From Candidatus Aerophobota bacterium (GTDB lineage: Bacteria; Aerophobota; Aerophobia; Aerophobales; B3-G15), in contig JACUUP010000027.1 of assembly GCA_014859225.1 (NCBI GenBank), positions 1-14,599 of the forward strand: DNA of 14,599 bases. The letters run 5' to 3'. Numbering within the stretch: position 1 is the first letter of the stretch; each line of letters starts with the position of its first letter. Below are positions 1-14,574 of this stretch, piece by piece. The position numbers and the translations under genes were made by a program. The notes below the pieces were generated by a model that was given only the letters and a program-made list of their open reading frames with translations, made no database searches and was not told the origin of the DNA.

Positions 1-8
1 GTAGCCAT

Positions 9-23
9 ATCAGTGTATACATT
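9..23 (-). promoter_or_regulatory. Proximal operator candidate (copy 1 of a 15-bp repeat)
   Basis: The 15-bp plus-strand sequence ATCAGTGTATACATT contains the perfect 8-bp palindrome TGTATACA (14-21). It overlaps the last base of the -10 box at 21-26 and covers the expected transcription start of the leftward promoter. An identical 15-mer lies at 122-136. A palindrome over the start site, repeated upstream, is the usual layout of a repressor operator. The yGT-A-TACr core resembles operators of GntR-family regulators, but that family assignment is inference. Confidence 0.55.
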
Positions 24-48
24 ATAGCACATTTTCCCAATATGTCAA
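21..48 (-). promoter_or_regulatory. Sigma-70 type promoter reading leftward out of the window
   Basis: On the minus strand a perfect -35 TTGACA (plus 43-48) is followed by a 16-nt spacer and a perfect -10 TATAAT (plus 21-26), preceded by TGC, an extended -10 signature. The region upstream of the -35 (about 50-100) is strongly AT-rich and could act as an UP element. The start would fall near positions 12-16, inside the proximal operator copy. The controlled gene lies left of position 1 and is not visible. Confidence 0.8.
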
Positions 49-121
49 GGAGCTTCACATAATTTTCTATTTAAATATAGATAATTAGGTAACTTTATGA
101 GAATCTCGCAAATTACACTAA

Positions 122-136
122 ATCAGTGTATACATT
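122..136 (-). promoter_or_regulatory. Distal operator candidate (copy 2 of the 15-bp repeat)
   Basis: An exact second copy of ATCAGTGTATACATT, 113 bp from the first when measured start to start, with the same TGTATACA palindrome (127-134). It also forms a 6-bp inverted repeat with flanking sequence: TACACT at 114-119 and AGTGTA at 125-130. Lying about 75 bp upstream of the -35 box, it could support DNA looping or cooperative binding. The spacing is close to 11 helical turns, which would put both copies on nearly the same face. Confidence 0.5.
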
Positions 137-202
137 CTTTACACCTCTTTTTGTCTACGCAATCCATCATCAATACTACATTAGCGCATTTTTACATTAA
201 AG

Positions 203-211
203 TTATCCACA
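203..211 (+). promoter_or_regulatory. DnaA-box-like 9-mer
   Basis: The sequence TTATCCACA is a perfect match to the classical DnaA box, in an AT-rich intergenic stretch. I saw no second perfect copy nearby. The genes on this side do not diverge as they usually would at an origin, and dnaA, dnaN and gidA are not visible. It could be a DnaA-responsive site of the leftward promoter or a chance match. Confidence 0.25.
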
Positions 212-268
212 AGTATTTAATAAACTCACGCTAGACCCGGATTAACTTTTTTAGCGTATAGTCCCTTG

Positions 269-295
269 TTCCAAAATACCACTCCTTTTTTGGAA
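269..295. repeat. Inverted repeat, 8-bp arms
   Basis: TTCCAAAA (269-276) and TTTTGGAA (288-295) are perfect inverted copies around an 11-nt centre. On the minus strand the loop contains AAGGAG, followed at 7 nt by TTG and a frame of only seven codons. The structure could be a hairpin in the leader of an RNA reading left, or a protein-binding dyad. No function is assigned. Confidence 0.35.
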
Positions 296-333
296 TATTA
301 GAGAAAATCCTTCTATCCCGTAACTGGTTTGAC

Positions 334-352
334 AAAAATCTCTTGATAGAGA
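334..352 (-). terminator. Weak intrinsic terminator after the lysine-rich ORF
   Basis: On the minus strand TCTCT-atca-AGAGA forms a 5-bp hairpin followed directly by five T residues. It begins about 13 nt after the stop codon of the small lysine-rich ORF. The stem has only two G:C pairs, so efficiency would be low. Its position supports the small ORF ending a transcript. Confidence 0.3.
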
Positions 353-365
353 AGTTTTAATTTAC

Positions 366-467
366 TTATTTCTTCTTTCCTTTTTCCTTCTGCTTTTTCT
401 CTTCTTTTTTAAACCACCCTTTCTTCTTTTCTTTTCCGCCCTCTTTTTTCTCTTCTTTTTTGTCCAC
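366..467 (-). CDS. Possible 33-residue lysine-rich microprotein
   Basis: A short minus-strand frame starts at GTG (465-467) and ends at TAA (366-368). It is preceded by an excellent Shine-Dalgarno: GGAGGTGA lies at 474-481 inside a GGGAGGTGAG run, with about 9 nt between GGAGG and the start codon. An in-frame TGA just upstream (474-476) means the frame cannot extend. About half of the predicted residues are lysine; most others are Glu or Gly, with one central Gly-Trp-Phe. It begins MDKKEEKKEGGKEKKKGWF. No signal peptide or membrane segment is visible. It could be a highly charged nucleic-acid or ribosome-associated peptide, or a chance frame in a purine-rich tract. I do not recognise a family. 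The ribosome-binding site and trailing hairpin favour a real gene; the biased composition argues for caution. Confidence 0.4.
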   Translation of the reverse strand: MDKKEEKKEGGKEKKKGWFKKEEKKQKEKGKKK

Positions 468-472
468 CTTGT

Positions 473-482
473 CTCACCTCCC
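473..482 (-). promoter_or_regulatory. Strong Shine-Dalgarno for the lysine-rich ORF
   Basis: The minus-strand sequence GGGAGGTGAG is complementary to the 16S rRNA 3' end over about eight bases and is well spaced from the GTG at 465-467. It is one of the best ribosome-binding sites in the window, although no long ORF follows it. Confidence 0.45.
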
Positions 483-852
483 TTTATTTTTCTTACTGTA
501 TCATATTTCCCGGCTCAATTACAAACTTCTTTTGTGTTATTTTGCTACGCTCCCGGATAAGATACAACTTATCTGCAGGATACGCTCATAAATACCTGCT
601 TTATGCTCATATTCCGGCTGTATGTGCCTATCTGCTGTCAAATAAAGGTCAAGGTATATGTAAACCCTTGCCGGCTGTGTTTTGTCTGTTAAATCACCTG
701 TTTTGGTGTGTTTCAGGATATAAAAACCCGGTCCTTTTTATACACTAACAGTTTCCCTTAGCTCTCTACATCTACTATTGTGGAGAATATATCTCACTGT
801 CCCGGCATACCAGGTACCCCCCCTCTTTTACTGGGAATACCTTTCTCATTAT
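483..852. other. Non-coding stretch with small inverted repeats
   Basis: About 370 bases with no credible coding frame; the plus-strand frames here start at TTG or GTG, lack ribosome-binding sites and resemble no family. It holds several dyads: GATAAG/CTTATC around 556-571, GCAGG/CCTGC around 575-599 and TATAAAAA/TTTTTATA at 719-742, and a repeated CCGGCTGT (614-621 and 671-678). A TATGAT about 35 nt upstream of the lysine-rich ORF on the minus strand is a possible -10, without a good -35. No tRNA, SRP RNA, tmRNA or riboswitch consensus was recognised. Confidence 0.4.
719..742. repeat. AT-rich inverted repeat, 8-bp arms
   Basis: TATAAAAA (719-726) and TTTTTATA (735-742) are perfect inverted copies around the 8-nt centre CCCGGTCC. 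The stem has no G:C pairs, so it is unlikely to be an intrinsic terminator. It may be a protein-binding dyad or part of a structured RNA. Confidence 0.3.
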
Positions 853-878
853 GGGAAGAAACCGTTCGGTTACTTCCC
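853..878 (-). terminator. Hairpin after the HU gene, end of the gene block
   Basis: GGGAAG and CTTCCC (853-858 and 873-878) plus inner AACC and GGTT (860-863 and 868-871) form a near-perfect 26-nt stem-loop with one symmetric mismatch and a 4-nt loop. It starts 20 nt beyond the stop codon of the HU gene, where the block should end. No T run follows on the minus strand, so it may stabilise the mRNA 3' end or act in factor-assisted termination rather than be a classical intrinsic terminator. Confidence 0.5.
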
Positions 879-898
879 ACTACTTACCTAAATTATTT

Positions 899-1171
899 TT
901 ATTTTACTGCATCCTTTAAACTCTTCCCCGAAACAAATTTAGGCGCTTTCTTAGCTGGAATTTGAATCTCCTTTCCTGTTTGAGGATTAACCCCTCTTCT
1001 TGCCTTCCTCTCCATCACCTGAAAAGTGCCAAAGCCAACTAAGGTAACCTTTTGACCTTTGGAGAGGCTGTTACTTACCGTCTTAATAAAAGCATCAACA
1101 ACATTGTCAACCTCTTTCTTAGTAATATCTACCTTACCTGCTACTTTCTCTATTAACTGTGCCTTGTTCAT
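899..1171 (-). CDS. hup: HU-family nucleoid DNA-binding protein
   Basis: A 90-residue histone-like protein that binds and bends DNA as a dimer and compacts the nucleoid. The sequence shows the whole fold: the N-terminal MNKAQLIEKVA helix, GFGTF near residues 47-51, and the DNA-binding arm RRGVNPQTGKEIQIPAKKAP at about 59-78, with the conserved intercalating proline in NPQTG. It ends FVSGKSLKDAVK, as HU proteins do, and length is typical. The ATG follows AAGGAGGAG; this site overlaps the rnfA stop codon 10 bases upstream, so translation is probably coupled. It is the last clear gene of the block and is followed by a hairpin. IHF is less likely because a lone HU-type sequence without IHF-specific features is seen. 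Confidence 0.95.
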   Translation of the reverse strand: MNKAQLIEKVAGKVDITKKEVDNVVDAFIKTVSNSLSKGQKVTLVGFGTFQVMERKARRGVNPQTGKEIQIPAKKAPKFVSGKSLKDAVK

Positions 1172-1181
1172 TTACTCCTCC

Positions 1182-1760
1182 TTAAATAAGTCCTGTAAAT
1201 CCCATAAAGGCAAGCGCAAGAAGACCAGCTGTAATTAAGGTCACAGGCGCACCCCTTAATGACCTTGGCACCTCAGCAAAATCAAGCTCCTCTCTTATCG
1301 CAGACATTAAAAGTAAAACAAAAGTAAAGCCCATCCCCGCACCAAAACCAAATATTATACTATCAATAAAAGTATATTCTCTGAGGGGGATGAAGAGAGC
1401 TAAAAACAAAATTGAACAGTTAGTTGTGATTAAAGGAAGATAAATCCCTAAACTTCTATATAAAGCGGGGTTTGTTTTTTTAATAAACATCTCTATCAGT
1501 TGAACAAGAGAGGCGATGATTAAAATGTCAGAGACATATTCAAGGAAGGGAAGATTTAACCCCTGGATAATATACATATTAACTGGCCAGACAACAGCCG
1601 CGGTGATGGTCATGACAAAAGTTGTAGCAAATCCCATTGCTACCCCGGATTCAACTTTACCTGTCACTCCTAAGAAAGGACAGATACCTAAAAAATAACG
1701 AAGGACAAAGTTATTTACAAGAACTGCTCCCAGGAAAATTAAAATCAATCTTCCAGCCAT
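1182..1760 (-). CDS. rnfA: RnfA/RsxA subunit of the Rnf electron transport complex
   Basis: A 192-residue integral membrane protein with six hydrophobic segments, matching RnfA of the Rnf (ferredoxin:NAD+ oxidoreductase) complex, which couples electron transfer to ion pumping; the homologous Rsx complex resets SoxR. Signatures include NNFVLRYFLGICPFLGV at residues 16-32, MGFATTFVMT at 42-51 and LPLITTNC at 108-115. Cys27 and Cys115 match the cysteines that, with RnfE, are known to hold an intramembrane iron cluster. The C-terminal LITAGLLALAFMGFTGL is also typical. NqrE is related, but the FLGICPF and LITTNC contexts favour RnfA. The ATG has AAGGAG 8 nt upstream. The other rnf genes normally next to it (rnfC, D, G, E, B) are absent: pyrG lies upstream and HU downstream, which is unusual. 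Confidence 0.9.
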   Translation of the reverse strand: MAGRLILIFLGAVLVNNFVLRYFLGICPFLGVTGKVESGVAMGFATTFVMTITAAVVWPVNMYIIQGLNLPFLEYVSDILIIASLVQLIEMFIKKTNPALYRSLGIYLPLITTNCSILFLALFIPLREYTFIDSIIFGFGAGMGFTFVLLLMSAIREELDFAEVPRSLRGAPVTLITAGLLALAFMGFTGLI

Positions 1761-1784
1761 ATTTTCAACTCCTTATGAGGCCCC

Positions 1785-3404
1785 CTAAATACTTACTCTC
1801 TCACGGGGCAAAGTTTTTTGCATAGCAGCTTTAACAAAATCTCTAAAGAGTGGATGAGGGCTCTGTGGTTTAGAATTATACTCGGGATGAAATTGAGTAG
1901 CCACAAACCAGGGATGGTTAGTTAGCTCAATTATCTCCACCAGGTTTTTTTCAGGATACATTCCAGCTATTCTCAAACCAGCTTTTTTTAGTATATCTTT
2001 GTATTTGTTATTAAACTCATAGCGGTGTCTATGTCTTTCATATACCAAACTTCTTTGATAAGCGCTCCAGCTCAAACTACCCTCTTCCAACCTGCACTCA
2101 TACTCACCCAGTCTCATTGTTCCTCCTCTGTCTTTAATTTTGCGTTGCTCGGGTAGAAGGTCAATTACTGGATACGGCGTGTTAGAATCAAACTCGGTTG
2201 AATTTGCACCTTTAAGGTTAGCAACATTTCGGGCAAATTCAATCACCGCACATTGCATTCCCAGACATAGCCCCAGGAAAGGCAGGTTATGTTCTCTTGC
2301 AAATTGTATGGCCTTTATTTTCCCCTCTATACCTCTTAAGCCAAACCCTCCGGGGACAAGGATTGCCTGAAAAGACGATAATATGTCTTCATTTTCATTA
2401 TTTATACTTTCTGATTCTATCCATTCTAAGGATACCTTTGCATGATTAGATGCCCCGGCATGAGTAAAGGCCTCAATAACACTTTTGTAGGCATCTTTCA
2501 TTTGAACATATTTTCCCACTACAGCAACTCTCACCAGCTTATTGGCACTATTAATTTTTTCTACCAATCCGTTCCATTCTGTAAGGTCTTTTTTTTTATT
2601 CTTTAAACCAAGCTGTTTCATTATCTTATCCGTTAAACCTTCTTTTTCGAAACGCAAAGGTACTTCATATATATTATCAACATCAATAGCCTGGATTACA
2701 TTTTTCTTCTCTACATTACAAAATAAAGATATCTTGTTTCTTGCTTTTTCAGTAAGAGGAAGCTGAGTGCGGCATAAAACAAAATCAGGTTGAATACCTA
2801 TCTCTCTGAGTCTACCTACACTGTGCTGGGTGGGCTTAGTTTTAAGTTCTCCCGCTGAGGGAACATAGGGAAGAAGAGTAAGATGGATAAATAAGGTATT
2901 ATCTTTACCTTCTTCTAACCTGAACTGTCTTACAGCTTCCAGAAAAGGTAAAGATTCAATATCCCCAACTGTCCCCCCAATTTCTACAATAACTATATAA
3001 GCCTTATCAAGTTTTGCTACCTTTCTTATTCTATCCTGAATCTCATCAGTTATATGGGGAATCACCTGGATGGTTTTACCCAGATATTTTCCTTTTCTTT
3101 CCTTTCCAATTATGCAGCTATAAATTTGTCCTGCTGTAACATTATTATAACGGGAAAGATTTACACCCACGAACCTCTCATAATGTCCAAGGTCAAGGTC
3201 GGTCTCTGCCCCATCTTTTGTCACAAAAACCTCCCCATGTTGATAAGGATTCATAGTTCCCGGGTCAACATTTATATAAGGGTCAAATTTTAACATGCTT
3301 ACTTTTAATCCCCTGCTCTTAAGTAATGTTCCAATGGAGGCTGATGCTATTCCCTTGCCAAGAGAAGAAAGAACTCCTCCTGTGACAAAAATGTACTTAA
3401 CCAC
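1785..3404 (-). CDS. pyrG: CTP synthase
   Basis: Converts UTP to CTP using ATP and glutamine, the last step of pyrimidine nucleotide synthesis, in the cytosol. The 539-residue length is normal. The N-terminal synthetase domain starts MVKYIFVTGGVLSSLGKGIA, with the nucleotide-binding loop at about 12-18 and the FDPYINVDPGTMNPYQHGEVFV block at 40-61. The C-terminal class I glutaminase domain shows PGGFG at 351-355, the nucleophile Cys380 in GLCLGMQ, and His506 and Glu508 in QFHPEY. All catalytic residues are present. The start is GTG, 4 nt after the ispG stop, with GGGGAG as ribosome-binding site inside the end of ispG, so the two genes are probably translationally coupled. rnfA follows after 24 bases. 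Confidence 0.98.
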   Translation of the reverse strand: MVKYIFVTGGVLSSLGKGIASASIGTLLKSRGLKVSMLKFDPYINVDPGTMNPYQHGEVFVTKDGAETDLDLGHYERFVGVNLSRYNNVTAGQIYSCIIGKERKGKYLGKTIQVIPHITDEIQDRIRKVAKLDKAYIVIVEIGGTVGDIESLPFLEAVRQFRLEEGKDNTLFIHLTLLPYVPSAGELKTKPTQHSVGRLREIGIQPDFVLCRTQLPLTEKARNKISLFCNVEKKNVIQAIDVDNIYEVPLRFEKEGLTDKIMKQLGLKNKKKDLTEWNGLVEKINSANKLVRVAVVGKYVQMKDAYKSVIEAFTHAGASNHAKVSLEWIESESINNENEDILSSFQAILVPGGFGLRGIEGKIKAIQFAREHNLPFLGLCLGMQCAVIEFARNVANLKGANSTEFDSNTPYPVIDLLPEQRKIKDRGGTMRLGEYECRLEEGSLSWSAYQRSLVYERHRHRYEFNNKYKDILKKAGLRIAGMYPEKNLVEIIELTNHPWFVATQFHPEYNSKPQSPHPLFRDFVKAAMQKTLPRERVSI

Positions 3405-3408
3405 TTCG

Positions 3409-4500
3409 CTAGCTCCCCAAACTTTGTTCCATAGAACGAAGTTCCTTTACTAAAGTAGGGATAATCTCATTCTTCTTTACCTTGTTTAGAAGATGCCCAT
3501 TTTTAAATAAAACTCCTCCCTGTCTGGTGCAGGCTATACCAATATCGGCTTCCTGAGCTTCTCCCGGTCCATTTACTTCACAGCCCATAACTGCCACCTT
3601 AATGGGTGAGTGCATCTTATCTATCACCTTAAGTATTTCTGCGGCAATAGAGAGAACATCTCCCCTGCTCCGCCCACAGGTAGGACAACTTATGAGAGTA
3701 GGTTTTTGCCGGATAAGGTCAAGATACTCCAGTATCTGATAAGCCACTTTAACTTCCTCTACTGAACTTGCAGTAAGAGAAACACGAATAGTATCTCCTA
3801 TACCCTCACTTAACAACGCACCAATTCCTATGACTGATTTAATAATTCCTGCAGGAGGAGGACCTGTGGCGGTAACCCCTAAATGCAGGGGATAAGAAAT
3901 TTTACCCGCAATTATTTTATTGGATAAAATAGTTACCGGCACCTCGGATGATTTAAGAGAAACTACTATATCCTCAAACCCATTCTCTTCCAGTAAACTT
4001 ACACAGCCAAGCGCCACATCAATCATTGCCTTACATACAAGATGTATCTTTTCCTCTTTATCAGCTTTGACTTTTAATATTCTTTCTAAAGTGCTCTTAG
4101 GCAAAGAACCCGAATTGACTCCTACTCTAAGAGGGATTTTTTTTTCTTTTGCCTTGCTTGCTACCAGCAATATTTCCCGGGGACTTAAATTGCCAGGATT
4201 AACCCTTACCTTATCTATACCTCTATCTATAGCCTCAAAAGCCAGGCGATAGTTAAAATGAATATCAGCAGCGAGAGGAATATCAACTTTTTCTTTTATC
4301 AGGGAAATGTTTTTTGCTGCTTTAAGGTTGGGAACGGCAACTCTAACAATCTTTGCTCCTGCTTCTTTAAGGGAGTATATTTCTTTAACTGTAGCATCCA
4401 CATCCAGAGGGTCGGATTTAACCATACCCTGAACAACGGGAGGTAAGCCACCTCCTATAGGTACCCCGCCAATTTTAATTAACCTGCTTTTTCTTACCAT
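3409..4500 (-). CDS. ispG: 4-hydroxy-3-methylbut-2-en-1-yl diphosphate synthase
   Basis: IspG (GcpE) is the penultimate enzyme of the MEP isoprenoid pathway: it reductively opens MEcPP to HMBPP using a [4Fe-4S] cluster. The 363-residue length fits the short bacterial form. The TIM-barrel half carries VRVAVPN (52-58), ADIHFNYRLA (78-87), KVRVNPGNL (97-105) and GIGDTIRVSLTA (233-244). The cluster half has Cys272 and Cys275 in SCPTCGRSRGD, then Cys307 and Glu314 in MGCEVNGPGEA, so all three cluster cysteines remain. Two motifs depart from the consensus as I know it: VQSMTNT reads VQGMVKS, and TEAG near residues 210-213 reads TATG. No good Shine-Dalgarno precedes the ATG; a palindromic repeat ends about 12 nt upstream of it. 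MEP reduction by IspG needs ferredoxin or flavodoxin in many bacteria. Confidence 0.95.
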   Translation of the reverse strand: MVRKSRLIKIGGVPIGGGLPPVVQGMVKSDPLDVDATVKEIYSLKEAGAKIVRVAVPNLKAAKNISLIKEKVDIPLAADIHFNYRLAFEAIDRGIDKVRVNPGNLSPREILLVASKAKEKKIPLRVGVNSGSLPKSTLERILKVKADKEEKIHLVCKAMIDVALGCVSLLEENGFEDIVVSLKSSEVPVTILSNKIIAGKISYPLHLGVTATGPPPAGIIKSVIGIGALLSEGIGDTIRVSLTASSVEEVKVAYQILEYLDLIRQKPTLISCPTCGRSRGDVLSIAAEILKVIDKMHSPIKVAVMGCEVNGPGEAQEADIGIACTRQGGVLFKNGHLLNKVKKNEIIPTLVKELRSMEQSLGS

Positions 4501-4510
4501 TCTTACACAA

Positions 4511-4529
4511 AAAGGGGACAGACCCCTTT
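4511..4529 (-). terminator. Terminator-like hairpin within the accD-ispG spacer
   Basis: On the minus strand AAAGGGG-tctgt-CCCCTTT is a perfect 7-bp stem with a 5-nt loop, running into TTTTT. It has the form of a short intrinsic terminator, but sits directly upstream of ispG (start at 4500) and is part of a larger repeat. It could attenuate read-through from rpsI-accD into ispG-pyrG-rnfA-hup. Confidence 0.4.
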
Positions 4530-4581
4530 CTTTAGCTCTGGTAGCTTTTACCTATGGTAGGATGGGCGTCTCGCCTGTCCC
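4514..4581. repeat. Palindromic REP/MITE-like element between accD and ispG
   Basis: The 80-base spacer is almost filled by an element bounded by inverted ends GGGACAG (4515-4521) and CTGTCCC (4575-4581). It has inner dyads: AAAGGGG/CCCCTTT (4511-4517/4523-4529), GGTA/TACC (4540-4543/4549-4552), TACC/GGTA (4549-4552/4556-4559) and GGCG/CGCC (4565-4568/4572-4575). GGGGACAG-type termini are common in dispersed palindromic repeats mobilised by REP-associated Y1 transposases in environmental bacteria. That link is inference; no transposase is visible. The right end abuts the accD stop codon. Confidence 0.55.
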
Positions 4582-5417
4582 TATTTTTTTAAAAAATCCA
4601 GTATTTTAATAAGAGTGGAACGGATATTGTTTCTATCTACCACAAGGTCAATCATTCCATGCTTAAGGAGGGATTCGGAGCGTTGAAACCCCTTAGGTAT
4701 CTGCTGTTTGATAGTCTGCTTTATCACTCTGGGACCAGCAAAGCCCAGAAGCGCCCCTGGCTCAGCTATAATAATATCTCCTCTGCTGGCGAAACTTGCC
4801 ATTGCCCCTCCCATTGTAGGATGGGTGAGAACAGAGATGTATAAACCGCCTTTAGTTTTAAACTCAGCAAGAGAGGCGCTTACTTTCGCCATCTGCATTA
4901 AAGAAAGAACACCTTCTTGCATTCTGGCTCCTCCACCTGAGCCAGAAATAATTATAAGAGGCAGATGTTTCTCCAAAGCTTTATCTACAACAGTAGCTAT
5001 TCTCTCTCCAACCACCAGACCCATACTACCTCCCATGAATCCAAAATCAGTTACCGTTATTGCAACCTCTCTACCTCCTATCTTGCCCTCACCTATTAGC
5101 GCAGCTTCATCCAGATTTGTACTTTTTTCTGCTTTTTTTAGCTTTTCCTCATATTCTGGAAAATTAAGCGGGTTGCTCGAGTTAAAGGTAGAATTATACT
5201 GAAAGAAACTATCTTTATCTAAAGTAATATCAATCCTGTAGCAAGCACCAATGTAAAAGTGATAATTACACTTAGGGCAAACACGAAGATTCTCATCCAG
5301 TGTTTTGTTATATACTATCTCCGAGCAATTTGCACATTTAGTCCATAAACCATCGGGAACATCTATTTTTTTCTTAACCTTTTTTATACGATTATATGTT
5401 TTTTCAAGCCACCCCAT
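4581..5417 (-). CDS. accD: Acetyl-CoA carboxylase carboxyltransferase subunit beta
   Basis: AccD forms, with AccA, the carboxyltransferase that moves the carboxyl group from biotin-BCCP to acetyl-CoA to make malonyl-CoA for fatty acid synthesis. The 278 residues begin with the typical zinc ribbon, CANC at Cys28/Cys31 and CPKC at Cys47/Cys50. The crotonase-fold core has IISGSGGGARMQEGVLSLMQ at about 156-175 and HPTMGGAMASFA at 199-210, which build the acyl-CoA site. Length is near the usual 280-300. The GTG/ATG ambiguity does not arise: the ATG at 5415-5417 fits the family start MGWLEK. Its ribosome-binding site is only a partial AGGTAGG, and it follows rpsI after 14 bases. accA is not next to it and must be elsewhere. 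A repeat element begins at its stop codon. Confidence 0.97.
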   Translation of the reverse strand: MGWLEKTYNRIKKVKKKIDVPDGLWTKCANCSEIVYNKTLDENLRVCPKCNYHFYIGACYRIDITLDKDSFFQYNSTFNSSNPLNFPEYEEKLKKAEKSTNLDEAALIGEGKIGGREVAITVTDFGFMGGSMGLVVGERIATVVDKALEKHLPLIIISGSGGGARMQEGVLSLMQMAKVSASLAEFKTKGGLYISVLTHPTMGGAMASFASRGDIIIAEPGALLGFAGPRVIKQTIKQQIPKGFQRSESLLKHGMIDLVVDRNNIRSTLIKILDFLKK

Positions 5418-5431
5418 AGATTAAAACCTAC

Positions 5432-5824
5432 CTATCTCTTGGAAGTTTGGGGCCTAGCTCGGGCACCCCTTAATCCTGGTTTTTTCCTTTCCTTCATCCT
5501 TGCATCCCGGCTCAGGAAATTAGCTTTTTTTAAGGTCTTTCTTAGCTCAGGATTAATCTCAGAAATTACCTTTGCTATTCCCAGTCTGAGCGCCTCAGCC
5601 TGTCCGCTTAAGCCTCCTCCTTCAACGTGAGCCGCAACATCAAATCTTCCCAGAAAATCAACCAGTTCCAGAGGTTCCCTTACTGTCTTTCTGTAAATTT
5701 CCCGAGGAAAGTAATCCTCAAAGCTGCGTTCATTAACCAGTATTTTTCCTTCTCCTGTTTTCATCCACACTTTAGCGACAGCTTCTTTTCTTTTGCCCGT
5801 AGCGTAAAAACTATTCATTGCCAT
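5432..5824 (-). CDS. rpsI: 30S ribosomal protein S9
   Basis: S9 binds the 3' major domain of 16S rRNA, and its C-terminal tail contacts P-site tRNA. The signatures FYATGKRKEAVAKVW near the N-terminus, GGGLSGQAEALRLGI in the middle, and the basic tail RDARMKERKKPGLRGARARP ending TSKR are diagnostic. The ATG at 5822-5824 was chosen, giving 130 residues like the Escherichia coli protein. GAGGAG lies about 11 nt upstream. A GTG four codons earlier overlaps that ribosome-binding site and is unlikely. In most bacteria rpsI follows rplM (L13); here the upstream gene is an unrelated sugar-nucleotide enzyme, and accD follows. A candidate promoter lies in the 5825-5894 spacer. Confidence 0.96.
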   Translation of the reverse strand: MAMNSFYATGKRKEAVAKVWMKTGEGKILVNERSFEDYFPREIYRKTVREPLELVDFLGRFDVAAHVEGGGLSGQAEALRLGIAKVISEINPELRKTLKKANFLSRDARMKERKKPGLRGARARPQTSKR

Positions 5825-5858
5825 TTTTTCCCACACTCCTCAAGATAACTTTTCTATT

Positions 5859-5886
5859 ACAATAGCAAAAATTCCAAAACAGTCAA
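5859..5886 (-). promoter_or_regulatory. Candidate promoter for rpsI-accD and downstream genes
   Basis: On the minus strand TTGACT (plus 5881-5886) is followed by 16 nt and TATTGT (plus 5859-5864), which is preceded by TGC as in extended -10 promoters. The match is 5 of 6 for the -35 and 4 of 6 for the -10. It lies in the only sizeable spacer in the middle of the block, about 35 nt upstream of the rpsI start. A separate promoter for a ribosomal protein gene would make sense here. Confidence 0.45.
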
Positions 5887-5894
5887 ATTATAAC

Positions 5895-7121
5895 TTAAAA
5901 AGAGAGGTTATCTGTAGACATAATTCTCTCATCACGCGTCATCTGATAGATATCCTCCAGAAGTTTAACGTGAATGCGAGTCTGATTAACATTACGCCGG
6001 GCAAACATTCTTTCCTGAGTTTTAACCACAGCAGGAAGATAATGTTCGGTTACCTGACCGAAGCCTCTAGCATAATTACAAAAACTGGGAACATTCGTAG
6101 TTACAAATCCGTACGCATAACTTGCCGCGCCTATAATCTTTCCAGTAAAAATACTCGTATTGATAGCCGTCTTAGAATAGTCACCAATTATACATCCCAA
6201 AAACTGCATACCCGTTGGAATTTTTTTTCCCTGATAGTTTATAGTTATCTCTCCATAAGTATTCTTTAAATCAGAGGATGAGGTTCCAGCTCCCATATTC
6301 ACCCAACTTCCCACCCAGCTGTGTCCCAAAAAACCGTGATGCTGTTTATTGGAAAAAACCTCCATAATTGAACACTCTACTTCCCCACCCACTTTGCAGT
6401 GAGCAGCAATATGGCACATATCTTTTATGCTTGCCCTTTCTGTAATTTTGCAGTTTTTACCAATATAAACCGGACCTTTTATGTAAACAAAGGGAGAAAT
6501 TGTTGTATCGTCATCAACTACAATGGTTCCTCCCTCTGTATCCATACAAGCTGTGGGATGAATCTGGACATTTTTTCCCACGAATACATCAGCTTCCCTC
6601 TCTTTAAAACCCTTTATAAGCTCTTGAAGATTCTCCTGGAAGTAGTACTTGTTATATCGAATGATGTCAAATGGATAGTTAATAAGAGGGAATCTTTCCT
6701 CAAGGAACTCGTATTCCTGCTCGCGCAGGAAATTAGTTAAAGAGCGCTCATCAAACTTGTTTAAATCAAAACTGATCTCAGGAAAAAATGCACAGACCAC
6801 TCTTGAATCACTCTCAGCAAGAAAAGGTTTTTTTTTGGCGGTTAAATCAATAATCTGCTGAATAATCCTATTTACAGGAGGAAAAGAAGCATTTATAAAA
6901 AGTAGACCCATTTTATCTTTGCTATTTAAAAGATGATTAGGGAAATCTTCAGCACAAAAGTCTCTCAAATATTGGCGCACAATGTAGGATATTTTAAATC
7001 CTTTGAATTTTAAAAGATTATACAGGTTTGTTCCACACATGCTTACCCCAAGAGCAGGTCTTGTTAGAGTTACAGGTTTTAGCTCCGCCGCCAGATAATC
7101 CTCAAAAATAATAACCTGCAT
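5895..7121 (-). CDS. Alternative GlmU: UDP-GlcNAc pyrophosphorylase / GlcN-1-P acetyltransferase-like protein
   Basis: A 408-residue protein resembling the alternative GlmU family best known from Bacteroidota, not classical GlmU. The N-terminus reads IIFEDYLAAELKPVTLTRPA (4-23), where the family has a degenerate nucleotidyltransferase signature (LxPxTxTRP) in place of the LAAGxGTRM loop. Residues about 180-345 are a left-handed beta-helix with hexapeptide turns such as VYIGKNCKI (218-226). The strongest signature is GFLGHSWVGSWVNMGAGT followed by SSDLKNTYG (263-289). Expected role: acetylate glucosamine-1-phosphate and couple it to UTP, giving UDP-GlcNAc for peptidoglycan or lipopolysaccharide. 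It begins directly after the glmS stop codon, with the ribosome-binding site GGTGGAG inside glmS, so the two are co-translated. GlmS makes the upstream precursor, which supports the role; glmM is not in the window. Uridylyltransferase activity is inferred. Confidence 0.82.
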   Translation of the reverse strand: MQVIIFEDYLAAELKPVTLTRPALGVSMCGTNLYNLLKFKGFKISYIVRQYLRDFCAEDFPNHLLNSKDKMGLLFINASFPPVNRIIQQIIDLTAKKKPFLAESDSRVVCAFFPEISFDLNKFDERSLTNFLREQEYEFLEERFPLINYPFDIIRYNKYYFQENLQELIKGFKEREADVFVGKNVQIHPTACMDTEGGTIVVDDDTTISPFVYIKGPVYIGKNCKITERASIKDMCHIAAHCKVGGEVECSIMEVFSNKQHHGFLGHSWVGSWVNMGAGTSSSDLKNTYGEITINYQGKKIPTGMQFLGCIIGDYSKTAINTSIFTGKIIGAASYAYGFVTTNVPSFCNYARGFGQVTEHYLPAVVKTQERMFARRNVNQTRIHVKLLEDIYQMTRDERIMSTDNLSF

Positions 7122-8951
7122 TTACTCCACCGTTACGCTTTTAGCAAGATTTCTTGGTTTATCCACATCGCATCCCAGACACGTGGCAATGTAGTAGGCA
7201 AGAAGCTGAAGTGGAATAACCGATAAAATGGGTGCAAGAAAATGAGGTGTGGGAGGAACGCTACATTTAAAATCACTTAAATCATCCATCTCCCGACTGG
7301 CCTCGGTAACTATTGAAATTATCTTCCCTTTTCTCGCCTTTATCTCAGCTACATTGGATTTAACCTTATCTAAAATATTGCTCTCTGTAGCTAAAACAAC
7401 TGTGGGCATGTTCTCATCTATAAGGGCTATTGGACCGTGTTTTAGTTCTGCAGCGGGAATACCTTCGGCATGCACATAAGATATTTCCTTGAGCTTCAAG
7501 GCTCCCTCAAGTGCTATGGGAAACTGATATCCCCTCCCTACGTAGAGAAAATTAGGGTATCTATAGAAAAGGTCAGCTATTTTTTCAACCTTTTCAGCCT
7601 TTTTTAAAACTCTCTTAGCAAGACAGGGAAGAGCCTCAATGGCATTTAAAGCAATAAGCCCTTCTCTTCTTGCCATAACCCCTTTCATCCTGGCAAAAAG
7701 AAGCGCAAGAAGTGTCAAAACCACAAGTTGAGAGGTAAAAGCCTTGGTTGATGCAACTCCTATCTCAGGACCTGCATGTAAATATACTCCTCTTCCACAC
7801 TCTCTTGCTATTGAGCTTCCCACTACATTACATATTCCCAGAACTTTAGCACCTTTTCTTTTAGCTTCCTTCATTGCAGCAAGGGTATCTGCCGTCTCTC
7901 CGGACTGGGATATTGCTATAACCAGCGTATCAGGAAGAAGAATCGGGTCTCTATACCTGAACTCGGAGGAATAATCTACTTCTGCAGGGATACGGGCAAG
8001 TTCCTCAAAAAGGTATTTACCAATAAGCGCCGCATGCCAGGATGTTCCACAACCAAGAAGTTTTATTCCCCTGACGGAAAGCATTTCAGATTGCGTAAGC
8101 TCAAGCCCACCCAGCTTAGAGATTGCTCTTCCATAATCAAGACGCCCTCTGAAGGCGTTATGTAAGGACTCGGGCTGCTCAAATATCTCCTTTAACATAA
8201 AATGAGGAAGACCACCTTTTCCAAGGGAAACAGCATCTAAAGAAATGGTATGAATTTCCTTTTGCATTTTTTCCTCTTTTAGAGTGGAAATCTCAAAAGA
8301 TGTGGGAGTAAGCTTGACCACCTCATCCTCATCAAGGTAAATCACCTTTCGGGTATGGGTAACAAGAGCATTTATATCCGAAGAAAGAAACATCTCTTTA
8401 TCACCTACACCTACAATGAGAGGTGAGCCTCTGCGAGCACCGTATAAGATATTCGGCTCATCAGTTGAGATTATGGCAAGACCAAATGCCCCCACCAATC
8501 TTAACATCGCCTTTCTTATAGCAGATAATATATCTTCTTGGTAATACTTTTCTATAAGATGTGGAATCACCTCTGTATCTGTTTCACTCCTGAAGATATG
8601 TCCTTCCTTTTGAAGTTCCTTTTTTAACTCAAGGTAATTCTCAATTATCCCATTGTGGACAACAGCTATCTTCATCCTGCAATCAAAATGAGGATGGGCA
8701 TTGATATCGGTGGGAAAACCATGGGTAGCCCAGCGAGTATGGGCAATGCCGGTAAAGCTTTTGCGGGGGAAATCATTCACAATCTCCTCAGCTTCTGATA
8801 TTTTACCTGCTTTTTTTATAGTAACCAAATTTTCATCTTTCAGAAAACTGAAACCCCAGCTATCATAACCCCTGTACTCAAGACACTTTAACCCCTTTAA
8901 AAGAATACTGGCACAATCCTTAAAACCCGTATAGCCAACAATTCCACACAT
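7122..8951 (-). CDS. glmS: Glutamine--fructose-6-phosphate aminotransferase (isomerizing)
   Basis: Makes glucosamine-6-phosphate from fructose-6-phosphate and glutamine, the first committed step to UDP-GlcNAc. The 609 residues equal the Escherichia coli enzyme in length. The N-terminal class II glutaminase has the nucleophile Cys2 in MCGIVGYTG, HTRWATHG at 71-78 and the NGIIENY loop at 100-106. Two SIS domains follow: GCGTSWHAA (300-308) and ISQSGETADTLAAM (347-360) in the first, then GRGYQFPIALEGALKLKE (472-489) in the second. His505 in ELKHGPIAL and Lys604 in the C-tail PRNLAKSVTVE match the isomerase catalytic residues. The ATG has GAGGAGAGG just upstream. The 15-base gap to the pilin gene leaves no room for a glmS ribozyme. 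Confidence 0.98.
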   Translation of the reverse strand: MCGIVGYTGFKDCASILLKGLKCLEYRGYDSWGFSFLKDENLVTIKKAGKISEAEEIVNDFPRKSFTGIAHTRWATHGFPTDINAHPHFDCRMKIAVVHNGIIENYLELKKELQKEGHIFRSETDTEVIPHLIEKYYQEDILSAIRKAMLRLVGAFGLAIISTDEPNILYGARRGSPLIVGVGDKEMFLSSDINALVTHTRKVIYLDEDEVVKLTPTSFEISTLKEEKMQKEIHTISLDAVSLGKGGLPHFMLKEIFEQPESLHNAFRGRLDYGRAISKLGGLELTQSEMLSVRGIKLLGCGTSWHAALIGKYLFEELARIPAEVDYSSEFRYRDPILLPDTLVIAISQSGETADTLAAMKEAKRKGAKVLGICNVVGSSIARECGRGVYLHAGPEIGVASTKAFTSQLVVLTLLALLFARMKGVMARREGLIALNAIEALPCLAKRVLKKAEKVEKIADLFYRYPNFLYVGRGYQFPIALEGALKLKEISYVHAEGIPAAELKHGPIALIDENMPTVVLATESNILDKVKSNVAEIKARKGKIISIVTEASREMDDLSDFKCSVPPTPHFLAPILSVIPLQLLAYYIATCLGCDVDKPRNLAKSVTVE

Positions 8952-8966
8952 TTTCCTCTCCTCTAT

Positions 8967-9506
8967 TTATGGACCCGAGATTCCGAGATCGCCACTACTA
9001 CTCAGTCCATCTCCCGGGTCATACCAGTTGTACCCATAACCAGTTTTTGAGCCTTCCCATCCACCTAACTGACCCACTGTGCGAGCGGACCAGTCAATAT
9101 CATCCGCAGATACATCGGGATTTTTATCCGGTCCATTGGAAACAATCAGCCAGGCAGTATCGCCCGTTGTATAATAACCGTAACTTTTATCTGTCAGTGC
9201 CCCATCCTTCACACCCCGGGCAGCATTTTCATTAAAATGGTCAGAGGGAATTGAAGTTATATATACTAAACCCGGCCCCGTAAGGTCAGTGCTCGTGCCT
9301 AGAAAAATATTATGGTCAATCCAGTACATCTGCACCGCATTTCCAAGACTTCTCATCTCGGCAAACGCCCTGGCAACCCGTGCTCTTGTTACCGCTCCCA
9401 TAAAGTTTGGAACAGCAATACCTACGAGAATAGCAACAATTGTAACTACTACCAGAAGCTCAACCAGAGTGAATCCCCTGGCTGTATCTTTTATCTTTCT
9501 TGCCAT
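8967..9506 (-). CDS. Type II secretion/type IV pilus-like pseudopilin (GspG/PilE type)
   Basis: A 179-residue pilin-like protein. The leader MARKIKDTARG ends at a Gly-Phe prepilin peptidase site, followed by FTLVELLVVVTIVAILVGIAVPNF, with the conserved Glu at +5 of the mature protein and a hydrophobic helix that serves as membrane anchor and assembly stalk. The C-terminal region is a small globular domain with YITSIPSDHFNE, GYYTT and WLIVSNGPDKNPD, features seen in GspG-like pseudopilins of several candidate phyla and consistent with the calcium-binding loop region. The start ATG at 9504-9506 was chosen because GGGAG lies 10 nt upstream and it gives a normal short leader; a TTG further up is weaker. 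No gspE, gspF or other pilus genes are nearby, so it may be a minor or orphan pseudopilin, acting with machinery encoded elsewhere. Confidence 0.9.
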   Translation of the reverse strand: MARKIKDTARGFTLVELLVVVTIVAILVGIAVPNFMGAVTRARVARAFAEMRSLGNAVQMYWIDHNIFLGTSTDLTGPGLVYITSIPSDHFNENAARGVKDGALTDKSYGYYTTGDTAWLIVSNGPDKNPDVSADDIDWSARTVGQLGGWEGSKTGYGYNWYDPGDGLSSSGDLGISGP

Positions 9507-9558
9507 CTTTATTCTACTCCCTTTTTTATTGAAAAGCAAGTTTTTAACAGAATAAAAG

Positions 9559-10911
9559 TTAAAGAATGTAGCGGGATAAACTCTCTTTTTGCACTATCTC
9601 ACCCAACTTTTCCCGCACATACTCATCAGTAATGGTGAAGGTTTTACCCTTTAGTTGAGGTGCCTGAAAAGATATTTCTTCAAGAAGCTTTTCCATAACC
9701 GTATAAAGCCTGCGAGCACCGATATCCTCTGTCTGTTCATTGACAAGGTATGCTAAAGAGGCAATCTCTTTAATAGCCTCTGACGTAAAGATAAGATTAA
9801 CACCCTCTGTTTTCAGAAGAGCCTGGTACTGTTTTATGAGCGCATTCCTGGGTTCGGTTAGTATCCGCTCAAAATCCTTTTCTGTCAGACGGTCAAGTCC
9901 CACTCTTATGGGAAATCTTCCCTGAAGCTCTGGAATTAAATCAGAGGGAGATGAACCGTGGAAGGCTCCTGCAGCAATAAACAAAATGTGGTCAGTTTTT
10001 ACCGCTCCATATCTGGTAGTCACAGTTGTACCCTCAACTATAGGAAGAAGGTCTCTCTGGACACCTTCTCTTGAAACATCGGCTCCTCTATTAGCTGCTC
10101 CATCTGCAATTTTGTCAATTTCGTCTACAAAAATAATCCCCGAGTTTTCCACTCTCCAGATAGCCTCCTGTATCATTTTATCTCTATCAATTAATTTCTG
10201 GGATTCCTCCTCCAGAACTATCCTCCTCGCTTCCTTAATGGGTACTTTCCTGGACCTTGACTTTGCCGGCATCATGTCCCCAAGAAAATCCTGGAAATTC
10301 ATTCCCATCTGTTCAACACCCACAGGAGTAAATATCTCTATCAGGGGCGCAAATTTATCTTTTGCTTTAATTTCAATCAGCCGGTCCTCAATTTCCCCCC
10401 TTCTTAACTTTTCCCTGAGCATCTCTCTGGTAGCCTCCGCTCTTTTAACTCTCTCATCTTCTACCCCTTCAGGCGTTGTGACCTTTTGGGGGAGGGGAAG
10501 AAGAATATCCAGGATTTTTTCTTCCACGAGCTGCTCTGCCTTTAACCTCACCTTTTGTATCATCTCCGTCTTCACCATATGCAGGGAAATATTAACTAAA
10601 TCCCTGACCATTGACTCTACATCCCGTCCCACATACCCAACTTCAGTATATTTGCTGGCTTCAACTTTGATAAGCGGAGCCTCAGCCATTTGAGCTAATC
10701 TTCGTGCAATCTCAGTTTTACCTACACCCGTTGGGCCTATCATAATTATGTTCTTAGGAGCAACTTCATCTTTCATCTTTTCGGGTAACTTCTGTCTTCG
10801 CCAGCGATTGCGAAGGGCTATAGCTACTGACTTCTTGGCTTTTTCCTGACCAATAATATATCTATCCAGCTCCTTAACAATGGTGGAAGGAGTTAAATGT
10901 TTTTCTCTCAT
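9559..10911 (-). CDS. hslU: HslU ATPase of the HslUV (ClpYQ) protease
   Basis: AAA+ unfoldase that feeds substrates to the HslV peptidase in the cytoplasm. The 450-residue protein shows the HslU start [21 protein letters not shown], Walker A GPTGVGKT at 59-66, the pore motif GYVGRDVES at 92-100, a charged intermediate I-domain at about 110-240, Walker [12 protein letters not shown] at 259-269, an arginine-finger region [10 protein letters not shown] near 328-337, and sensor-2 [10 protein letters not shown] at 398-407. The final residues SRYIL are the C-terminal tail that docks into HslV. ATG is preceded by AAAGGGGAC. The stop-to-start gap from hslV is 13 bases, the usual hslVU pairing. Length and motifs are complete. 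Confidence 0.98.
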
Positions 10912-10924
10912 GAGAGGTCCCCTT

Positions 10925-11455
10925 TCAAGTCAACTCCTCTATCATAATCTGGTTATTTGTATAAATGCAAATGGATGCAGTAATGCGTATGGAAAGGTCA
11001 ACAATTTTTGCCGGCTCATAATTGGTATGTTCCCACAATGCGGTGGCGGCAGCTTGAGCGTATCCTGCGCCTGAACCAATAGCAATAACATTCTCATCCG
11101 GCTCAATCACATCCCCACTTCCCGAGATGACAAGAGTTTTTTCTTTATCTGCAACAATCATCAAGGCTTCCAGCTTCCTTAAAACTTTATCCTGTCGCCA
11201 TTCCTTAGCAAGTTCCAGCGCTGCTCGCGGGAGATTGCCCTGATACTGCTCTATCTTTTTCTCAAACTTCTCAAATAAGGTGAGAGCATCTGCTACTGCT
11301 CCGGCAAAACCAGCCAGAATTTTTCCTTTGTAAAGCGTTCTAACTTTATTGGCCCTTTGTTTCATAACTATATTTTGAAAGGTAATTTGTCCATCCCCTC
11401 CTAAGGCCACTTTGCCATTCCTTCTTACTGCAAGGATAGTTGTTCCTCTAAACAA
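10925..11455 (-). CDS. hslV: HslV peptidase subunit of the HslUV protease
   Basis: The threonine peptidase that forms a double hexamer and degrades proteins unfolded by HslU. The chain has 176 residues, the usual size. It begins [20 protein letters not shown], so the catalytic Thr is residue 5, exposed only after removal of the short MFRG propeptide, as in many HslV proteins. The [27 protein letters not shown] and [14 protein letters not shown] blocks match the family. The start codon is TTG, supported by AGGAGGG about 5 nt upstream and by the family N-terminus. Upstream is xerC, with a 28-base gap; downstream is hslU. CodW/ClpQ-type variants with an Ser nucleophile are ruled out by the TT pair. 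Confidence 0.97.
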
Positions 11456-11483
11456 ATTTTCCCTCCTGTACTTTAGAAGTTAT

Positions 11484-12371
11484 TCAGGTGGCACGGGGAT
11501 GAGACTTTATGTAAACCTTTTTTAAATAAGAAGGTGCGATATGTGTATAAATCTGTGTGGTAGATACACTTTCGTGCCCCAGGAGTTCTTGAACTGAACG
11601 CAGGTCCGCTCCTCTATTAATTAAATGAGTAGCAAACGAATGTCTTAAGGTATGGGGGCTAACATGTTTTTCAATCCCCACTTTTTCAATATACATTCTC
11701 AGGCGCTCTCTGACAGCTCTATCGGAGAGTCTTTTTCCAGATTTATTCAGAAATAATGCCCCAACCTCAAAGGATAGCCTGGATATCCGTTCCTCTCTCC
11801 ACTTGAGATATTCTTTTAAAGCACAAAGAGCAAAGCTTCCCACGGGAATTAATCTTTCTTTACCCCTTTTTCCCTTTACCCGGACAAGCTCTGCATCAAA
11901 ATCAACATCGCCTGCGTTTAAATTAACCAGCTCAGCGAGTCTCATCCCTGTTGCATAAAGAAGCTCTACAATTGCTTTATCTCTCTGGAAAGAAAACCCT
12001 TCCCCCTGCATTCTGTCCAGAAGTTTTTCCGCCTCCTCTTCTTCCAAAAAAGAAGGTATTTTTCTTTTAATCTTTGGACCTCTCATCGCCTGATAGGGAA
12101 AATTCTTTATCAGGTTTTTTCTATCCAGAAACTGAAAAAAACAGCGAAGAGAAGAGGTTTTTCTGGCAATAGTTGAGTGCTCTTTCCCTTCATCTAACAA
12201 TGTTTTAAGGTATTTGCGGAGGAGAGGATAATCCATCTCCTCAATTTGCCTTTTCTCTTTATCTAAAAAATCTACAAAATGTTTTATATCCGAAGTATAT
12301 GCTTTAACCGTCAAAAATGATAGGTTTTTCTCCTGGCTTAGATGTGCTAAAAAATCAAGCATTATTTGCAC
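11484..12371 (-). CDS. xerC: Tyrosine recombinase XerC
   Basis: Site-specific recombinase that, usually with XerD and FtsK at dif, resolves chromosome dimers. The 295-residue protein has an N-terminal SAM-like core-binding domain (about 1-90) and a C-terminal catalytic domain. All active-site residues are visible: Arg144 in ATGMR, Lys168 in VKGKRGKER, His240 and Arg243 in HTLRHSFATH, His266 in LLGHES and nucleophile Tyr275 in IYTH. Assignment as XerC over XerD rests on the position between topA and hslVU, where XerC/CodV is found in many bacteria, so it is context-based. The GTG start at 12369-12371 overlaps the topA end by 17 bases and has GAGGAAG 7 nt upstream; an ATG three codons later is spaced too far. 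The overlap suggests translational coupling. Confidence 0.93.
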   Translation of the reverse strand: MQIMLDFLAHLSQEKNLSFLTVKAYTSDIKHFVDFLDKEKRQIEEMDYPLLRKYLKTLLDEGKEHSTIARKTSSLRCFFQFLDRKNLIKNFPYQAMRGPKIKRKIPSFLEEEEAEKLLDRMQGEGFSFQRDKAIVELLYATGMRLAELVNLNAGDVDFDAELVRVKGKRGKERLIPVGSFALCALKEYLKWREERISRLSFEVGALFLNKSGKRLSDRAVRERLRMYIEKVGIEKHVSPHTLRHSFATHLINRGADLRSVQELLGHESVSTTQIYTHIAPSYLKKVYIKSHPRAT

Positions 12372-14574
12372 GGGAAAACTTCCTCAATGTAATTATCTGG
12401 TGAATGATTCCGTTAAGATTAATCTCTTCAACTTTAGTGTTTTTCACATTTTCTCCACATTGAGGACATTTCAACCCACCTTTATCTTTTTTTACAAGAT
12501 AAAGATTGCCACAATGATGGCACACATCGTTTACCGGCTCATCCCAGAGGACAAACTTACAATCTGGATAATTTGTGCAGGCATAAAAACTTTTGCCTCT
12601 TTTCGTTATCTTCTCCACCAGCTCCCCCTCACATCCGGAAGAAGGACATTTTACGCCCACCTTTTGGTCAAGAGGTTTCGTATTTTTACACGCAGGATAA
12701 GCTGAACAGGCAAGGAACTCTCCAAAGCGTCCCACCTTAACCACCAAGTTCTGTCCACATTTCTCGCACTTTAAAGAACTTTTCTCAAGACCTTCTTTCT
12801 TGATATTCCTCATCTCGGTTTCTGCCCGCTTGAGGTCTTCTGCAAATCTCTGGTAAAAATCTTCCACCAGGTGGACCCACTTCTTTTTTCCCTGCTCAAC
12901 GTCATCAAGCCCTTCCTCCATTTTAACAGTAAAATCAACATCTATGATGGTAGGGAAGCTGTCTGTTAAAAGAGTATTTACAACTTTTGCCAGCGAAGTG
13001 GGTATTAATTTCCCCTTGTGCCACCTGACATAACCTCTTCGCTGAATCGTTGAGATAATGGGAGCATACGTGCTTGGTCTTCCAATTCCTTTTTCTTCTA
13101 AAGTTTTAACCAACGTTGCTTCAGTGTAGTGAAAGGGAGACTGGGTAAAGTTTTGCCTGGAAATAATCTTTTCTATTGTTAAAACCTCTCCCTCATCAGG
13201 AACAAAGATAAGCTTATCTTTTTCCTTTTTTTCCTCATAGACCTTTAAAAGCCTGTTCCTGACCAGGCTCAGGAATCCGGGAAAAAGGATTTGTCTTCCT
13301 TCAGCTTTAAATATGTAACTTTTTCCTCCTGAGCCTGTACAGGAGCAGGCTTTAACCCTAAAAGGAGTATCTCTTATACCAAGACTCACTTTTTCAATAA
13401 TAGCTTTTGCCATTTGAGAGGCTGTGAACCTTCGCCAGATAAGGTCGTAAAGTTTGTAGTGGTCAGATGAAAGATAATTTTTAACTATCTCTGGAGTTAA
13501 ATCAACCCGCGTAGGTCTTATTGCCTCATGAGCATCCTGGGACGTTTTCTTATTCTTATACTGGAAGATTTTGGGAGGTATAAAATCTTTCCCCAAATTT
13601 TCTTTTATCCACCTGCGGGTCATCTCTTGAGCTTCTTTTGCTACACGGGTTGAGTCTGTGCGCATATAAGTTATAAGTCCTGCCCTCTCATCGCTCCCGA
13701 TGTCCTGTCCCTCATAAAGACCCTGGGCAATTTTCATAGTTTTAGCCGGGGAAAATCTTAAATAATAATTTGCCATCTGCTGAAGAGTGCTCGTGGTAAA
13801 AGGTGGAGCGGGGGATTTTTTAATTTGTGTCCTTTTTACCTCATAAACTTTGTAACTTCGCTCTCCTATCTCTTCAGCTATTCTTTTTGCTGCTTTCTCG
13901 TCCTTAATTTTTGCCTTTTTACTATCAATATGGTAAAGAGAAGCTTCTGTTTTTTTTCCCTGGTGGTTCTGGAAAATGACCGAAATACCCCAATATTCCT
14001 CAGAGACAAAGTTTTCAATCTCCTGCTCTCTTTCACATAAAAGTCTAACCGTAACCGACTGAACTCTTCCGGCTGATAAGCCTCTTCTAACTTTGCTCCA
14101 CAAAAGGGGAGAGAGCTTGTATCCTACCAGCCTGTCAAGCACACGTCTTCCCTGTTGAGCATCTACTTTATTTGTATCTATTTTACCCGGGGTTTTTATA
14201 GCATTTTGCAGAGCTTCTCTTGTAACCTGATTAAATAAAATGCGGAACGTGTTCTTAGCTTGAAGCTCCTGGGAAAGATGCCAGGAAATAGCCTCTCCCT
14301 CCCTGTCCATATCCGTTGCCAGAAAAACCTTTTCAGCTTTAGCACTTAATTTTTTTAAATTAGCTACTATCTTTTTCTTTCCGGAAATTAAAACATAGGT
14401 TGGCTCAAATTCATTATTAATATCCACCCCTAACTTATTTTTTGGCAGGTCCCTGATATGACCAAGACAGGATACCACTTCATAGCCTGAACCAAGAAAT
14501 TTATTTATCGTCTTAGCCTTAGCCGGCGATTCCACAATAACAAGGTCTTTTTCTTTGGACATCTTCTTTCCCAA
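12355..14574 (-). CDS. topA: DNA topoisomerase I (type IA)
   Basis: Relaxes negative supercoils by cutting one DNA strand. The Toprim domain carries LVIVESPAKAKTI (Glu15) and ATDMDREGEA (Asp88, Asp90, Glu92). The cleavage domain carries the nucleophile Tyr303 in LITYMRTDSTR, with LSAGRVQSV at 166-174 and EKGIGRPSTYAPII at 494-507. The C-terminus holds three zinc-binding modules: CEKC...C...C (603-629), CPSSGC...C...C (643-672) and CHHC...CPQC (685-706). The 739-residue length is normal. The TTG at 14574 has AAGGTG just upstream; an ATG four codons later is equally plausible but has a weak site, and the frame has no stop before the window edge. An unusual Cys-Gly-rich segment, ACSCTGSGGKSY at about 409-420, is coded by a palindromic stretch. 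It overlaps xerC by 17 bases. Confidence 0.97.
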   Translation of the reverse strand: MGKKMSKEKDLVIVESPAKAKTINKFLGSGYEVVSCLGHIRDLPKNKLGVDINNEFEPTYVLISGKKKIVANLKKLSAKAEKVFLATDMDREGEAISWHLSQELQAKNTFRILFNQVTREALQNAIKTPGKIDTNKVDAQQGRRVLDRLVGYKLSPLLWSKVRRGLSAGRVQSVTVRLLCEREQEIENFVSEEYWGISVIFQNHQGKKTEASLYHIDSKKAKIKDEKAAKRIAEEIGERSYKVYEVKRTQIKKSPAPPFTTSTLQQMANYYLRFSPAKTMKIAQGLYEGQDIGSDERAGLITYMRTDSTRVAKEAQEMTRRWIKENLGKDFIPPKIFQYKNKKTSQDAHEAIRPTRVDLTPEIVKNYLSSDHYKLYDLIWRRFTASQMAKAIIEKVSLGIRDTPFRVKACSCTGSGGKSYIFKAEGRQILFPGFLSLVRNRLLKVYEEKKEKDKLIFVPDEGEVLTIEKIISRQNFTQSPFHYTEATLVKTLEEKGIGRPSTYAPIISTIQRRGYVRWHKGKLIPTSLAKVVNTLLTDSFPTIIDVDFTVKMEEGLDDVEQGKKKWVHLVEDFYQRFAEDLKRAETEMRNIKKEGLEKSSLKCEKCGQNLVVKVGRFGEFLACSAYPACKNTKPLDQKVGVKCPSSGCEGELVEKITKRGKSFYACTNYPDCKFVLWDEPVNDVCHHCGNLYLVKKDKGGLKCPQCGENVKNTKVEEINLNGIIHQIITLRKFSRANNA
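13326..13345. repeat. Nested palindrome inside topA
   Basis: CTCCTG (13326-13331) and CAGGAG (13340-13345) are inverted copies, and within the same stretch CCTGTACAGG (13334-13343) is a perfect 10-bp palindrome. It codes the Cys-rich segment near residues 409-420 of TopA. Whether it is an inserted element or simply sequence-driven cannot be told here. Confidence 0.25.

Follow-up and report, generated by a model that had tools for sequence, protein, structure and literature searches.

The window is the 14,599-nt stretch of DNA analysed here; it comprises a whole contig (C80), and its bases 1-55 equal the last 55 bases of a second contig of the same genome (C121). We assigned its left end to the 5′ end of an insertion sequence of the IS1634 family (Table 1), an assignment that rests on this overlap, on a whole-genome DNA search and on a similar leader and end in a relative from Aerophobetes (L041). 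The transposase gene begins on the minus strand and runs off the window into C121. It had been predicted that a strong promoter at this position serves an unseen gene to the left, starting within about 200 bases, and the transposase gene does start at once, immediately left of the promoter. Adjoining the element, ordinary chromosomal genes occupy 899-14574 on the minus strand; matches were obtained to HU (PF00216), an Rnf/Nqr membrane subunit (PF02508), a sugar nucleotidyltransferase and a pilin-like protein, and CTP synthase, IspG, AccD, RpsI, GlmS, HslU, HslV, XerC and TopA were recognized by eye. A long pyrimidine-rich (T/C), non-coding stretch lies at 350-480, between the element and the HU gene.

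Table 1. Features at the left end of the window (positions are those of the window unless C121 is named)
Feature	Position	Strand	Basis
Assigned 5′ end of IS1634-family insertion sequence (non-coding leader and first transposase codons); remainder C121:9208-11045	1..230	-	55-bp overlap, whole-genome DNA search, similar leader in L041
Transposase gene start (ATG at 8-6), running off the window	1..8	-	NF033559 profile match, C121 ORF
Operator-like copy of end motif (AATGTATACACTGAT on transposase strand), from -10 through predicted start to the base before ATG	9..23	-	exact repeat; motif common to the element's own ends
-10 hexamer TATAAT with TG extension	21..26	-	sequence match
-35 hexamer TTGACA	43..48	-	sequence match
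5′ subterminal copy of 15-mer motif, presumed transposase-binding site at element end	122..136	-	exact repeat; inverted partner C121:9282-9293
Terminal inverted repeat (CGTGAGTTTATTAAAT read inward)	215..230	-	partner C121:9208-9223; same end in relatives
CTAG, presumed 4-bp target-site duplication	231..234	.	empty site of Rhodococcus relative L087

C121 carries an intact transposase ORF of 574 codons on its minus strand (C121:9274-10998, stop codon included). Against the profile of IS1634 family transposases (NF033559), for which the cut-off is 100 bits, the product scored 240.1 bits (E 5e-71). Candidate DDE residues D178, D266 and E455 were invariant in an alignment of relatives and were found by eye in the C121 ORF, so that the conserved acidic catalytic residues of such an enzyme are predicted to be present. 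Since the structure model of the transposase was poor (mean pLDDT 57.7), no DNA-binding domain could be named from it.

When C121 and the window were joined over the 55-bp overlap, a perfect inverted repeat of 21 bp (TCTAGCGTGAGTTTATTAAAT, flanking CTAG included) was found at window 215-235 and C121:9203-9223. The boundary of the element was taken from relative L087, whose empty site is present on plasmid NZ_CP113952.1 (Rhodococcus sp. JS3073) with flanks identical at 504 of 504 bases. The empty site has one CTAG and the filled site two; CTAG is therefore a 4-bp target duplication in L087, and given this boundary the element proper starts CGTGAGTT there. We assumed the same boundary, CGTGAGTT at both ends, for the Aerophobota element, for which no empty site was found in the same genome, where the C121 flank occurs nowhere else. 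A second inverted pair, TGTATACACTGA, lies inward of the terminal repeats. Its 5′ copy falls within 122-136, and its 3′ copy (C121:9282-9293) consists of 12 exact bases, inverted, which overlap the final codons of the transposase gene.

The IS1634 family, formerly the IS1549 family, is poorly characterized. The element agrees with it in transposase model match, terminal sequence and length of ~2.0 kb. In PMC2266710 the family is given an end consensus of C-----YT, with which both ends agree, and a length of 1500-2000 bp, which the ~2013 bp of the joined element exceed marginally and with which we counted it as agreeing; relatives measure 1881-2047 bp including CTAG. The 4-bp CTAG duplication of L087 differs from the target duplications reported for the family, which are 5-6 bp and AT-rich, or long variable repeats.

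The two contigs may flank one insertion, which the assembly does not prove, and their outer flanks do not resemble two halves of one gene. Beyond the 3′ end of the element, C121:9060-9202 (L004:61-203) encodes, by eye, the C-terminal zinc-finger part of a TnpB-like protein (KGEIFKCRNCGYTQDADYNASLNI). Because the matching upstream half is absent from the window, the two outer flanks may not be one locus.

The promoter was found as originally described, a perfect TTGACA/TATAAT pair with an extended -10, pointing out of the window. The hexamers are separated by a 16-nt spacer, TG precedes the -10 hexamer and all 12 hexamer positions match the consensus; within window 1-1300 this pair (48-21, minus strand) is the sole perfect match. 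Transcription is predicted to start ~6-7 bases past the -10 hexamer. The resulting leader of only ~5-7 nt leaves no room for a ribosome-binding site, and for this reason the transposase mRNA looks leaderless.

The 15-mer ATCAGTGTATACATT occurs exactly at 9-23 and 122-136, 113 bp apart. The copy at 9-23 spans the end of the -10 hexamer and the predicted start site and reaches up to the start codon. Such an identity had been judged unlikely to arise by chance, and in simulations it was rare: any repeated 15-mer appeared in just 6 of 20,000 Markov-simulated 240-bp sequences of similar composition. In a scan of the window that allowed up to three mismatches, 0.36 matches were expected and two were present, both perfect. 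The exact 15-mer was found at three places in the 1.8-Mb genome, the third being C121:10999-11013, 32 bases from the contig end. As this copy falls inside the 55-bp contig overlap, it is the same site as window 9-23. The whole-genome search thus restricted the exact 15-mer to one insertion sequence, with no exact copy elsewhere in the 1.8 Mb, and the scattering of exact copies that would have spoken against the original prediction was not seen. No Rfam match was obtained.

We also compared related elements, which were drawn from species genomes and plasmids; none was found among viral contigs. The expectation that the sites would be conserved was borne out, since the layout recurs in related elements (~30-70% transposase identity) from genomes of Deltaproteobacteria, Aerophobetes and Bacillota. 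In close relatives (60-70% identical transposase; Deltaproteobacteria and Aerophobetes) the three sites are nearly unchanged, and in distant ones (~30-43%) the letters of the motif differ between elements and agree within each. Variants include GTATACACTGA, GTATAAACTAAA (L042, L073), GTATTACCCTAC (L071, L079), GTATTACCTA (L086-L088) and the wholly different TGTAGGACCCTAC (L084), and within one sub-group a single motif is found in elements from different phyla. For a test of co-variation, each promoter region was paired with the 3′ regions of all elements and the matches were scored, terminal repeats having been removed. Across 14 divergent representatives, the scores of promoters with their own 3′ regions summed to 142; permuted pairings averaged 103 (sd 7.5), and 142 was attained in 0 of 20,000 of them. 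Against the element's own 5′ region (11 elements) the sum was 132 versus 87, again reached by 0 of 20,000 permutations. The sites are conserved, and they co-vary with the element that carries them.

Tested singly by Markov shuffle (pass threshold 5/300 or fewer), 14 of 23 elements passed; among these 23, no significant promoter-to-3′ match was found for L045, L081, L082, L083 and L085, and the most distant members (L089-L092) had none either. Because of these failures we regard the three-site layout as typical within a large sub-group but not across the IS1634 transposases as a whole, as judged from the sequences compared. Of 26 elements checked, 14 have a perfect TTGACA starting 35-40 nt ahead of the ATG, several of them with a differing motif; the start codons of some distant relatives were assigned by alignment alone. 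This spacing places the motif site on the core promoter. The motif covers the -10 region, and in L084 the promoter copy sits in the spacer just behind the -35 hexamer.

As the motif tracks the element rather than its host, its likeliest reader is the transposase, the only protein of the element, and the position on the core promoter is where a repressor would act. We infer both binding by the transposase and the repression that would follow from it. The best explanation, and in our judgement a likely one, is autorepression by the transposase, through a copy of its end-binding site that overlies the core promoter. The promoter driving the transposase gene lies within the element's 5′ end and is strong and apparently leaderless. 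A motif of 12-15 bp, separate from the terminal inverted repeat, sits subterminally at both ends, and the transposase would probably bind these copies so that the two ends are assembled for transposition. Accumulating transposase would then occupy the promoter copy, from the -10 hexamer to the start codon, block RNA polymerase and keep its own level low. Tight repression, possibly by looping, was originally proposed. Both copies are real and probably bind a protein; one of them lies on the core promoter, and a repressor site is the likeliest reading. The comparison lends no support to looping by helical phase, because the distance between the two 5′ copies, 113 bp here, is ~56 to 186 bp in relatives, and the spacings compared (113, 134, 132, 121, 108, 56, 186 bp and others) have no phase in common.

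It is also conceivable, if rather unlikely, that the motif serves only as a subterminal end-recognition site for the transposition complex, the promoter copy being a third docking site whose effect on transcription is incidental. Such a role is suggested by L086-L088, in which no 5′ copy other than that on the promoter was found. The promoter copy and the 3′ copy are about equally far from the terminal repeat, and in these elements end recognition may be the primary role of the promoter copy. Most elements, however, have a separate 5′ copy and yet keep another exactly on the core promoter. Control of transposase expression by a host regulator, GntR-like or other, appears very improbable. The palindromic core TGTATACA does fit the loose yGT...ACr pattern on which a GntR-type binder had been proposed, but the motif varies with the element: it is wholly different between some elements and consistent within each, and one motif is common to sub-group elements across phyla. 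The accompanying idea of a regulon fared no better, as a site common to several host genes was not found and every exact copy lies in the one insertion sequence. A genome scan with up to three mismatches gave 55 scattered matches versus 37 for a reversed-pattern control, a modest excess. Positive autoregulation through the promoter copy, for which the presence of a binding site at the promoter could speak, the sign of the effect being beyond computation alone, deserves scarcely any credence, as the promoter is already at consensus and a site covering the -10 hexamer, start site and start codon is in the classical position of a repressor.

Beyond autorepression itself, a tentative possibility is that many IS1634 transposases read two signals, a slow-changing terminal repeat beside CTAG, which would mark the cut site, and a fast-changing subterminal identity tag, whose copy on the promoter would give each element private feedback that does not cross-react with the cell's other elements.

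Self-repression of a transposase through end-like sites is a known principle. In IS1 (InsA) and similar self-repressors, a protein encoded by the element binds ends overlapping its own promoter and reduces the synthesis of transposase. Here, in contrast, it is a separate copy of the subterminal motif, not the terminal repeat, that lies on the promoter, and the element encodes no candidate binder other than the full-length transposase. The Drosophila P element has internal transposase-binding sites near its promoter, and its transposase can repress transcription; enzyme and host are unrelated to those considered here, and no kinship is implied. PMC2266710 and PMC4549789 mention terminal repeats in their descriptions of the family, and no subterminal motif or promoter copy was found in the passages searched. 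A literature search likewise returned no report of IS1634 elements whose two ends and promoter carry a separate, co-varying tag; as many journals lie outside its coverage, the evidence for novelty is weak. If the proposed autorepression is correct, each element carries a ready-made circuit in which operator and end-recognition site change together. The tag would also help in locating the ends of elements, and the way in which a mobile element with a single gene limits itself and distinguishes its own DNA from that of relatives could be tested directly.

Two further observations concern the motif copies themselves. In the sub-group of L036, L037, L039, L040 and the present element (C121:9277-9295), the 3′ copy is part of the coding sequence and specifies the last residues of the transposase (FSVY), and the DNA site appears to dictate this conserved peptide end. 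In-frame stops interrupt the transposase of the closest relative (L041, L046; Candidatus Aerophobetes AUK192), whose three motif copies and leader are intact despite this.
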